Positions 53,773 to 57,570 of a stretch of DNA of 64,000 nt are shown piece after piece. Below the pieces are notes generated by a model, which was given only the letters and a program-made list of their open reading frames with translations, had not been told where the DNA came from and ran no database searches. Numbering within the stretch: position 1 is the first letter of the stretch; every line of letters begins with the position of its first letter. Origin of the DNA: Endocalyx cinctus (taxonomy: Eukaryota > Ascomycota > Sordariomycetes > Amphisphaeriales > Apiosporaceae). The DNA lies in NCBI GenBank assembly GCA_001600455.1, contig BCKC01000005.1, positions 434,001-498,000 on the forward strand, written 5' to 3'. Made by a program: the position numbers and the translations under genes.

Positions 53773-54505
53773 TTATACATAATTCCGTACCCCTTTCAAA
53801 ATCCAGACCTCTCCATTACCCACCCGACTAGCCACGGTTTGGACTTCAATATCATCTGGTTTTATCTATCCGATCACAATGTAATGTTAGCATCGATACC
53901 AGCTAAATACAATGTTGTGAGTTTCAGAATTCAAAGTCGAGACTTACCACAATAGCCCCATCACTCTCCCTGACCTCCCACCAAATCTCCCTATCCCCAT
54001 CTAACAGGGACTTCACCTTCTCCCCTTGGTTCCACGGGCTTGTCGGTACTACATGCGCCTCGACGAATCTCTTCACGTTCCTGCGCGCCCTCTCCTGCCC
54101 ATCCGGGCCGTCGTAAGCGTTCATGCCGTCGCGAGGGTCCTCCCAGGGTTTTCGCGGCAGCGCGTCCACCGCCGAGTTAAGAGGCGCCAGCACCGTGCTG
54201 TTGTTGTCCGCGGCGTCGAGGCGCTTCGACACGACGGCCACGTCGCGCGCCAGCCCGGCGAAGATGTTGATGCTGCGGTCGCGGCCCATGACGTCCGAGA
54301 TCAGCACGCCGTTCTGCGTCATCTGCGGTTCGATCTTCTGCGACATGACCGGCGAAGTAGAGGAGGAGGAGTCTGCGAAGAGAGGCTTTTGGTTCTCGAC
54401 AGGAAGCTTTCGCTGGATGCCGTAGGGAAGCACTTCGAGCTGGGTTGATGGGGTAACGGTTAATAGGATTTGGGCGAGGAGGTAGTGAATCGGAGAGAAT
54501 CGCAT
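53773..54505 (-). CDS. Secreted fasciclin (FAS1)-domain protein
   Basis: The 216-residue product comes from two exons (54505-53948, 53865-53773) with a GTAAGT donor and a GCTAAC...TAG acceptor. The start MRFSPIHYLLAQILLTVTPS is a signal peptide; an upstream in-frame extension to 54703 is rejected because it would bury this leader. The FAS1 domain spans about residues 75-210, with SINIFAGLARDVAVVSKRLD, NNSTVLAPLNSAVDALPRKPWED (the H1-type TVLAPLNSAV motif), VKRFVEAHVVP (the helix before the H2 strand), and ESDGAIV joined across the intron to IKPDDIEVQTVASRVGNGEV. The C-terminal VWILKGVRNYV is needed to complete the fold, which supports the second exon. FAS1 proteins act in adhesion or in secretory/vacuolar compartments; the role here is unknown. 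It lies downstream of the HET-ACP gene on the same strand, 405 bp away. Confidence 0.87.
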
Positions 54506-54910
54506 TTTCGATGCTAGATTTTCCGATACCGAAAATTTCGACCGTATAATAAATAAATAAACAGATGATGGGTAAGTCGGTAGATATGCGGTAGACAACA
54601 GCAGTATGGTGAATTGTAGGCAGAGGTGGGTTGAGGTCCAAGAACGGCTGATAAGGTTATCTAAGCTTAAACGTGACATCATCAGAGCGCTAAAGCTTGG
54701 CATCTATTTTGTGTTCACCAGACCGCAGGCACCTGGCGAAATTTAATTGACATGGCCCATGTCTAAACTCTTGAATTCTAAAAATTTGATTCATCATTTC
54801 CCCTACCCCATTAAAGGAGTTTCGCAATGAATCATTTTGTTAACGGTTAGGTAACCAAATAATTTCCTCGTAATGGATTTTCTCTAGTGTATTTCCAACC
54901 CGTATTCCGA
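54506..54910. other. Spacer between HET-ACP and FAS1 genes
   Basis: Short AT-rich spacer that must hold the end of the HET-ACP transcript and the FAS1 promoter. No motif was recognised. Confidence 0.5.
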
Positions 54911-56533
54911 TTAATCATGTTCGGCGGCGATGATATGCTGAATAACATCTCTAAAATTCATGAGAGCAAGGCGTTGCCCTGCAGCAAAGGCATCATCATT
55001 GAAGCCTTCGACAAAACCTGTGACTATTGATACCAGACCCTCCTCCTTACAGGCCGGTTTCTCATATTGTTCGAGATGTTTTTTGAAAGCTCCAACTGTA
55101 TCGTAAAAGACGTCGTGGTGGATATCTATATCCAGCTCTTCGCGTATTCGCCCACAAATTGCTAAGATCACGAGAGAATCAACACCAAGTTCAGTAAAAG
55201 ATCTGTGATCAATAAATTCAGTAAGATCACGACACACTTCTTTCGCAACGATCTCCAAAGCTTGGGACGTAACGCTCTGGGGTGTATGGGCTGGCATCGG
55301 CTTGATAATTGTCGCATTCGAGGATATATAATCAAGGCCACGCAAGTATATATTCATTGGCCTCCCGCTGTCTGTACTGAATGTCCATCTGCGAGGTCTT
55401 TCGCAAATAAAAATAGGATGCCCTTGCAAATCATTCCGAAAAAAATGGAGTTTGAGACTAATCTTCTGTGGTATTCCGTTGTTATCGTTAACGACCCAGT
55501 TGAATGTGGCTTCTGCGTTGTCGCCGCGCTCAAAGTCCTCGTTTCTACCTCTCGTATTCTTCACCGGCAATGTGATATGTAATCCCAGGTTCGTTATGGA
55601 GAACGACGTCCATCTCGTCACCCCCTCGAGGGATAAAGACCCTTTTGGCCGCAGCCTCATCACCGTTCCCGAATTTTGGAAACAATCAGGCGAGTCCGCC
55701 AGAAGACGGTAAGAAGTGCCGTCCGTACGATACCATAAAAAGATACTCTGGTCGGGAGTGTAGTTTATTATCTCACGTTGCAGCCTCGTGAAAGCTTTCT
55801 CCAGACCTTCACCGTAGAGAATAGGCATGCTGATGTCAAAAAGACCCATCAAACTGTAAGCCCGATCTTCTGGCCTTGTAGTCACTCGGCGAGAAGCCCA
55901 AAACATGCGTTGAGCTACGCATGCTTGCGAAAGATTTTTTCTCCCGTTTAGAAAGTCTGTTGGAATACCGGTGATTGTCGATAGTTCTTCGTAGAGGTTA
56001 AAACGAGCAGATGATCCGGTTGAACCAGGCTTAGGATCTAGTCCGATAATTCCAATTTTCTGACCGCACTTATAGCCGATGGTTACCCAATTACGGTCGT
56101 AGAAGACGATATCGCTCGGGGCAAGTAACTCCTGTAGCGTCCATCCTCGTTCCAACCACCGACATCTCCTGAGCATCTGTATAACGTCTGACCCACTAAC
56201 AACATCTGAAAGATATGCGTAGCAGCGACCAGCCGTCTTGTACCATTGGAACATAGAGTTTATGGCTTCTGATAGCTCGGCACTGCTACGCTTATCAATG
56301 CAGCAGGTATCAACCCACGCATACTCGAATCCATCAACCCGCGCTTGTACACAAAGGTTTTCGATCTTGCGGAACCCATCTTTGAGGCGAGCTTTCTCTC
56401 GGTGTTTCGGCTTCCGCATCTCAACAAAGGATACCTCCTCTGCTCCCCATGTGTGCGAAAGGATGGCGTAGGCGGGGATCTTATCGCCATCGAACTCCCT
56501 CAGCTCTAGGTCTTGAGTGCGTAGGAGCCACAT
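54911..56533 (-). CDS. HET-domain protein fused to a PKS-type acyl carrier (phosphopantetheine-binding) domain
   Basis: A single exon encodes 540 residues. Residues 1-165 form a complete HET domain: AYAILSHTWGAEEVSF (21-36), YAWVDTCCIDKRSSAELSEA (71-90) and CRWLERGWTLQELLAP (124-139). The usual post-HET block follows (RPEDRAYSLMGLFDISMPI, then YGEGLEKAFTRLQREI). HET proteins mediate heterokaryon incompatibility and NLR-like cell death in filamentous ascomycetes. After a linker (about 410-425), residues about 425-495 read as a polyketide-synthase acyl carrier domain: ALEIVAKEV, the attachment motif FTELGVDSLVILAICGRIRE (Ser453, codon 55177-55175), DIDIHHDVFYDTVGAFKKHL. A tail of about 45 residues follows. 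The frame has no stop or splice signal between the domains, so the fusion is encoded as such. The start MWLLRTQDLELREF is the canonical HET start. No KS, AT, TE or PPTase gene is visible nearby. The fusion's role is unknown. Confidence 0.88.
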   Translation of the reverse strand: MWLLRTQDLELREFDGDKIPAYAILSHTWGAEEVSFVEMRKPKHREKARLKDGFRKIENLCVQARVDGFEYAWVDTCCIDKRSSAELSEAINSMFQWYKTAGRCYAYLSDVVSGSDVIQMLRRCRWLERGWTLQELLAPSDIVFYDRNWVTIGYKCGQKIGIIGLDPKPGSTGSSARFNLYEELSTITGIPTDFLNGRKNLSQACVAQRMFWASRRVTTRPEDRAYSLMGLFDISMPILYGEGLEKAFTRLQREIINYTPDQSIFLWYRTDGTSYRLLADSPDCFQNSGTVMRLRPKGSLSLEGVTRWTSFSITNLGLHITLPVKNTRGRNEDFERGDNAEATFNWVVNDNNGIPQKISLKLHFFRNDLQGHPIFICERPRRWTFSTDSGRPMNIYLRGLDYISSNATIIKPMPAHTPQSVTSQALEIVAKEVCRDLTEFIDHRSFTELGVDSLVILAICGRIREELDIDIHHDVFYDTVGAFKKHLEQYEKPACKEEGLVSIVTGFVEGFNDDAFAAGQRLALMNFRDVIQHIIAAEHD

Positions 56534-57570
56534 TTGGTTTCAGGTTCATTAGATCAATTTTAGGGAAATTTTTGTGTAGGATTGCAGAAAAGGCTGGATT
56601 AGGCTCCAGGATGTGAAAAGTAAATGTGAATACAAGGATATGGCTTAGTAGCCAAGGCGTTATCTCTCGTAACTGTTCTTTTCCTAGATGGGAATACAGC
56701 TGACTGCAGGTATAAGCAGCCACTGTGGTTCCGCTTTGCTGTCATGATATCGGTACTATTATATTAAGCCACCGCCAAGTAAGAAAAGAAAAGAAAGAAA
56801 AAGGCAGGGGAAATGATATAATGTGTGTTTTTGATGTCGTTGCCCCCGCAAAGAAGATGAGAAGCTAATCGATTGATCTGAATTTCTTGATAAAGTCATT
56901 GGGTTCGGGGACCAACTACTTTCCTGAATTACTGTAAAAAGTACTTCCGTCTCCTATCTTAAATATATCTCTTTGGAGCGACTGGGACAAGCTATTCTCT
57001 GATCAGCTAGGGTTCCTTAGCCGACAAGTTACAAGACACTTCTAGGTACAGCTCTCTGCCCCAAAGATGGCTTATTGTATACCCAGGTCTAGGCTGCATA
57101 TTCGTGCTGTGTTGTAGGGATTGTGGGGGAAATTTTCTATATCCGTGAAAATTGTATTATTGATCTTGGGAATCAAGATGGGAAGTCTAGAGAGCTTCAT
57201 CTTGTCGGGTAACACTTTATATAAAAGGTAACAGACAGCATCAGCCTTTGCAGATTGGTGCGAACTTCTTCGATTATTTTGCTAAGTTAATAATAATGGT
57301 ATTTTGCATAATACCGATATACGGATTACTCAATATTACTTATTATATGCATGATCCTTTTAACATTGCGGGGCACTTCAAGCTTTGAAAGATGTCTTGG
57401 AATTTGATAACTAACTACATCAAATCACCACAACAATACTGCTTTTTGTGAGGAATTCATTGTTCATTCTCCAACTAGTGACTATTTCTCATTCCTTCTG
57501 TGTTATTGTTTATATCCATTTATCTCTCTGCTATATAAAAAGCCGGCACCTTGTGGTACCTTCAGTCAAT
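56534..57570. other. Divergent spacer between HET-ACP and NAA38
   Basis: A 1-kb AT-rich region between divergent start codons. An 80-codon frame just upstream of the HET gene (56481-56723) overlaps its 5' end in another frame and is not called. An upstream extension of the NAA38 frame to 57448 lies before its preferred ATG. Confidence 0.55.

Follow-up and report, generated by a model that had tools for sequence, protein, structure and literature searches.

A fungal HET protein bearing an acyl carrier domain of the melanin polyketide synthase type: a candidate cell-death receptor

Few domains are as frequent in filamentous fungi as HET, yet the roles of HET genes are known for a few incompatibility loci and hardly beyond (available parts of PMC10890737 and of a 2023 review). 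What might an acyl carrier domain be doing behind a HET domain in a gene of Endocalyx cinctus? The gene lies at 54911..56533, on the reverse strand, of the stretch of DNA analysed here (64,000 nucleotides of contig BCKC01000005.1, hereafter the window) and is a single open frame of 540 codons with a TAA stop. An initial annotation, made from the sequence alone, read this frame as a HET domain joined to a polyketide synthase (PKS)-type carrier, and both the DNA frame and Pfam bear the fusion out. A chance or mis-framed fusion was considered and rejected, the frame being open in the DNA and carrier following HET sequence in 33 aligned relatives.

The HET domain (residues 1-255; 55769..56533, reverse strand, as for all parts below) was correctly recognised from its motifs: it matches PF06985 at 48.5 bits against a cut-off of 22.5, and the columns of AILSHTWG (residues 23-30), AWVDTCCIDKRSSAELSEAINSMFQWY (72-98) and ERGWTLQELLAP (128-139) are conserved in the alignment, with Glu135, in the last of these, being glutamate in 66 of 66 alignment rows. 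In the predicted structure this block has pLDDT values of 92-98, except at residues 151-180. The beta-rich middle region (residues about 256-400; 55334..55768), with model strands between residues 312 and 398, resembles in place and strand content the HET-associated domain (HAD) of het-B as portrayed in the available part of PMC10890737, and is called HAD-like here on that footing. Residues 420-489 (55067..55276) form the carrier, for which the PF00550 profile match and the structure model agree with what had been expected: a four-helix fold is predicted, and Ser453 (codon 55175..55177), the predicted 4'-phosphopantetheine acceptor, is the first residue of helix II. The C-terminal tail (residues 490-540; 54914..55066) is helical by prediction, at low confidence (pLDDT 46-57), and its 51 residues matched nothing better than E 1.5 besides themselves among the proteins and loci compared; most relatives stop sooner past the carrier. 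Pfam found no NACHT, NB-ARC or WD match in the protein (E <= 1), and no KS, AT, SAT or PT domain. GC3 falls from 0.51 in the front of the gene (55314-56533) to 0.33 in the ACP and tail (54914-55313).

The fusion recurs. The best homolog listed for the window protein is 57% identical over 91% of its length, and in our census (the best 120 of 8000 scored homologs, and therefore a lower bound) at least 30 proteins have a PP-binding domain in their precomputed annotation, which for 25 of these shows a HET domain as well. We aligned the window protein with 33 relatives, namely those 30 together with P0013, P0023 and P0038, in which a carrier is visible in the alignment. Hosts named among the matches listed are Durotheca, Rhypophila, Podospora, Cladorrhinum, Pyrenophora, Lophiostoma, Coniothyrium, Didymosphaeria, Paraphaeosphaeria and Cadophora, and members span three classes according to the four hosts whose lineages were checked: Sordariomycetes (Durotheca, Podospora), Dothideomycetes (Pyrenophora) and Leotiomycetes (Cadophora). 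The initial annotation knew of no described HET-ACP architecture. This holds for the open-access literature (PMC, as distinct from subscription papers and preprints), in which we found no such fusion described, but not for the databases, where such proteins stand under automatic names, making this a conserved family and not a one-off. A homology search with the ACP alone gave 25 candidates and three matches, none with a listed HET domain; it shares too few words with its targets to serve as a census. In one protein, P0042 (779 aa), HET was matched in two stretches.

On a tree of the HET and middle parts (111 rows), the window protein and 29 of the 33 relatives fall inside one group of 42 rows with support 99, and a careful HET tree of 52 rows returns the same group at 99/99 against 10 chosen outgroup rows; P0020, P0029, P0044 and P0050, being incomplete, were omitted from these trees. 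Such a grouping is expected if there was one capture followed by losses. The carrier is absent from 12 of the 42 rows and its label changes six times on the HET trees, counts which by themselves do not separate gain from loss; the simple reading would be one gain of the carrier and several losses, but some of the 12 rows may be truncated gene models.

The carrier had been assigned to the non-reducing PKS type, and rightly so; the most informative fact, absent from that annotation, is that it is of the melanin-PKS type. A whole-protein search of the genome to which the window belongs (44.76 Mb in 15 contigs) found matching carriers at four places outside the window gene. The closest is the ACP1 of a PKS on contig C7, at 43% identity, and the other three, one on C11 and two on C2, reach 33-35%. 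The C7 frame holds an SAT end, KS, AT, a dehydratase-like match in the product-template position, two ACPs and a TE, and KS-AT-ACP-ACP-TE is the order of a DHN-melanin PKS (PMC4738786, part available). Its 120 listed relatives include two named 'PaPKS1 melanin biosynthesis polyketide synthase' and one named 'melanin synthase'; the best matches on that list, about 75-82% identical, belong to Hypoxylon, Xylaria and their kin (the two species checked are Xylariales), an affinity that makes Xylariales the probable placement of the source fungus. The genome also has scytalone-dehydratase family matches on C2, C4 and C11, and PPTase-family matches on C1 and C8.

When ACP1 and ACP2 profiles built from 120 melanin-type PKSs were scored on the 34 rows, the window carrier gave 65.8 bits with ACP1 and 23.0 with ACP2. 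ACP1 was the better fit for 30 of the 34 rows (weakly, at 10.2, for P0013), while P0004, P0014 and P0015 fitted ACP2 and P0021 had one copy of each kind. Judged by profile and homology search, the carrier is thus kin to the ACP1 of melanin PKSs. The ACP tree (70 columns) places P0004, P0014, P0015 and the second P0021 carrier with PKS ACP2 at 100/99; the ACP1-like HET carriers form no single resolved group in it, and P0028, P0030 and P0031 fall on long branches among other carriers, although ACP1 still outscores ACP2 for them. Of the two carriers of P0021 (563 aa), the ACP1-like copy lacks the serine and the ACP2-like copy is intact.

A TE follows in six of the 34 rows (P0004, P0020, P0023, P0025, P0026 and P0038; HET-ACP-TE proteins of 704-831 aa) and is missing from the other 28. 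P0020 is 57% identical to the ACP2-TE of the C7 PKS over 356 residues, the next ACP-TE match standing at 32%; its carrier itself scores as ACP1 (76.9 vs 24.4 bits), so that the TE must drive this match. On the TE tree the HET-TE proteins need two changes, with long branches, a pattern that would fit one origin as well as more than one. The simplest history would be that one ACP1-ACP2-TE tail was captured behind a HET protein and that different pieces were then lost, the window gene retaining ACP1 alone; no TE remnant was found beside it (tblastn of four TE domains against 53801-56700; best E 0.096). Pieces of the PKS tail may also have been captured repeatedly, since P0014 and P0015 nest deep within PKS ACP2 on a long branch. 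Public databases label four of the six HET-ACP-TE proteins (P0004, P0023, P0025 and P0038, 791-831 aa) 'conidial yellow pigment biosynthesis polyketide synthase'. A ketosynthase is not among the Pfam matches of these entries; the name is an error which can mislead PKS counts.

Within the family, conservation is lowest in the carrier, with a mean column identity of 0.44 (0.77 for HET residues 1-110, 0.52 for residues 290-400). Between the window protein and P0003 of Durotheca, identity is 65% in HET, 51% in the middle part and 35% in the ACP; for the melanin PKSs of these two fungi the figure is 88-89% in ACP1, ACP2 and TE. The ACP is the least alike part in five of six pairs with the window protein, the exception being P0008 (carrier 46%, middle domain 41%). 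The window protein and P0003 may not be orthologs, and the fast carrier divergence may reflect old paralogy. RIP was rejected as its cause, the indices of the ACP and tail pointing the other way (TA/AT 0.59 vs a window mean of 0.91; substitution index 1.38 vs 1.04).

Through this drift the site of the arm is kept. Residue 452 is aspartate in 33 of 34 rows and residue 453 serine in 31 of 34, the exceptions being P0013, P0024 and the first P0021 copy; as the second P0021 copy is intact, two of the 34 proteins (P0013 and P0024) lack a pantetheine serine. In 120 melanin ACP1s there are 31 columns with an invariance of 97% or more, and we scored these in 31 HET carriers, the three ACP2-type rows being dropped: Asp452 is retained in 30/31, Ser453 in 28/31 and Gly450 in 28/31, and with 452 and 453 set aside the 29 columns left are retained at a mean of 47%. 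The pantetheine serine is, as far as alignments tell, selectively retained. In all six HET-ACP-TE proteins the TE has its Ser, Asp and His, which we take to be the catalytic triad (alignment read by eye). That the Asp-Ser pair and the triad are kept while the rest drifts suggests that a chemistry is being preserved on a drifting scaffold; retention of the TE residues is also compatible with an enzyme.

The nearest known likeness is to the het-B locus of Podospora anserina, where, in the part of PMC10890737 available, BH1 is described as HET up to residue 240, then a HET-associated domain rich in beta strands as far as 380, then a C-terminal domain that is divergent, and the BH C-terminal domain sets recognition specificity. 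With BH1 and BH2 as so described the window protein shares a single exon, an N-terminal HET of about 240 aa, a beta-rich region to about 380, HAD-like in the window protein, and a divergent C-terminal domain of a different origin, in a non-NLR build. Domain order, borders and strands agree (HAD being placed by position and strands), and in both families conservation is lowest at the C-terminal domain; the fold of this domain differs, being that of a lectin in het-B and of a melanin-PKS-type carrier here. The HNWD family HET-D/E/R (HET-NACHT-WD40) has the N-terminal HET effector in common with the window protein, which differs in having no NACHT or WD match and in possessing the HAD-like region, said to be lacking from NLR-type HET proteins (PMC10890737, same part). 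To the tail of a DHN-melanin PKS (ACP1-ACP2-TE, e.g. PaPKS1) the likeness lies in carrier sequence and fold and, in the six relatives, in a TE with its triad. Unlike such a PKS, the window protein has HET and the beta domain in place of KS, AT, SAT and PT: of the order SAT-KS-AT-PT-ACP-ACP-TE an ACP1-like fragment is all that is found.

From the fusion, the predicted carrier fold, the kinship with melanin ACP1, the recurrence within one HET group and the retention of the serine, we propose a HET-type cell-death receptor built like het-B, whose recognition domain is a captured DHN-melanin PKS carrier, a proposal that we hold with about even confidence. Because het-B BH1 appears to have the same build, the carrier is read as the recognition domain, controlled by the pantetheine arm or by whatever binds it. 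A phosphopantetheinyl transferase would load the arm onto Ser453; the state of the carrier (holo, acylated, or engaged by a melanin PKS or PPTase that may be cognate, foreign or attacked) would either hold HET off or switch it on; and HET would then kill or seal the cell, perhaps through TIR-like NAD chemistry. The initial annotation suggested that a cell-death switch could have the arm as its sensor or its effector; a serine kept on a decaying background and the het-B-like build are consistent with that. The TIR-like nature of HET comes from published work, including the available part of PMC10890737, and our own fold-match list (VIA) was filled by carrier matches, with residues 1-416 hardly probed. 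An incompatibility role is proven for 4 of 132 HET genes in P. anserina (same source, same part), so that 'cell-death receptor' is something we infer for any single HET gene. The 12 carrier-less rows, and the missing serine of P0013 and P0024, suggest that the arm is dispensable for some members, unless those models are truncated.

A narrower form of this explanation is that the ACP is an integrated decoy, baiting an attacker of the melanin PKS tail (a foreign effector, a foreign PPTase or another agent) whose modification of it triggers HET. The C-terminal domain appears, by its sequence, to be derived from a melanin-type PKS, different members hold different pieces of the supposed target (ACP1, ACP2, both, or ACP-TE), and active residues are kept amid fast divergence, all of which would suit a bait; an attacker of this tail is not known, however, and we consider the idea unlikely. 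To our knowledge, no integrated decoy has been reported for HET proteins, and the accessible portions of the open-access literature on decoys and heterokaryon incompatibility yielded the plant case only, in which NLRs use integrated decoys. More broadly, and still tentatively, the family might be an ascomycete surveillance receptor that monitors the melanin synthase: its HET death domain, coupled to a PKS tail copy which can still be loaded, would answer tampering with the melanin machinery or its PPTase, or a foreign version of either, with regulated cell death, lineages retaining different tail pieces as bait; we think this somewhat improbable in its entirety.

The same conserved pantetheine serine and TE triad, on a carrier of melanin-PKS type, would also be expected of a melanin-pathway accessory, in which HET has no death role and the ACP (with the TE in some members) acts in trans with the melanin PKS as a stray acceptor, an off-loader or a dominant-negative brake on the polyketide chain. 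This is doubtful, as the HET motifs are conserved as well (Glu135 in every row), HET diverges more slowly than the carrier, 28 of the 34 rows have no TE, and the gene lies on contig C5 but the PKS on C7. Decidedly improbable is an evolutionary relic, a chimera produced by recombination with the 3' end of a PKS gene, in which the carrier is tolerated and functionless: the rows without a carrier, the loss of the acceptor serine from P0013 and P0024 and the lower GC3 of the ACP and tail fit such a history, but the retention of Asp452 and Ser453 far above that of the other PKS-invariant columns does not, and nor does the occurrence of members in three classes.

If the receptor reading is true, fungal immunity would be linked to melanin, a pigment both conserved and protective: through the fusion, a cell-death switch may perceive or watch over the enzyme that begins black melanin synthesis. 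The domain in the sensor position here has a traceable origin, a known chemistry and one modifiable residue, which reduces the question of HET perception to a single-residue experiment. Available parts of two earlier studies touch on the pairing of these domains: the genes induced in incompatibility are enriched both for PP-binding and for HET genes (PMC3689799), and in the neighbourhood of one type III PKS clade no domain is more frequent than HET, without statistical enrichment (PMC6985275).

Among 20 window ORFs chosen for Pfam scanning there was no PKS gene near the HET-ACP gene and no linked PII-like gene, the partner gene of the het-B type (spliced genes may escape such a scan); the window holds further ORFs of at least 170 aa, and stops 7.5 kb past the gene on one side. 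The 20 comprise EFTUD2, thiolase, Sin3 and PAH, RNase P p30, a Zn-cluster protein and unknowns, with weak WD and Rpc31 matches. A second HET-ACP gene in the genome was sought by eye among 141 HET and 107 PP-binding matches, a procedure which intron-split genes may escape, and rejected: three pairs lie within 5 kb, and the sole same-strand, same-frame pair is that of the window. At C11:902009-904802, an open frame of 423 aa on the forward strand bears a carrier and has other forward-strand open frames upstream of it; some 2 kb away there is a HET match on the opposite strand.
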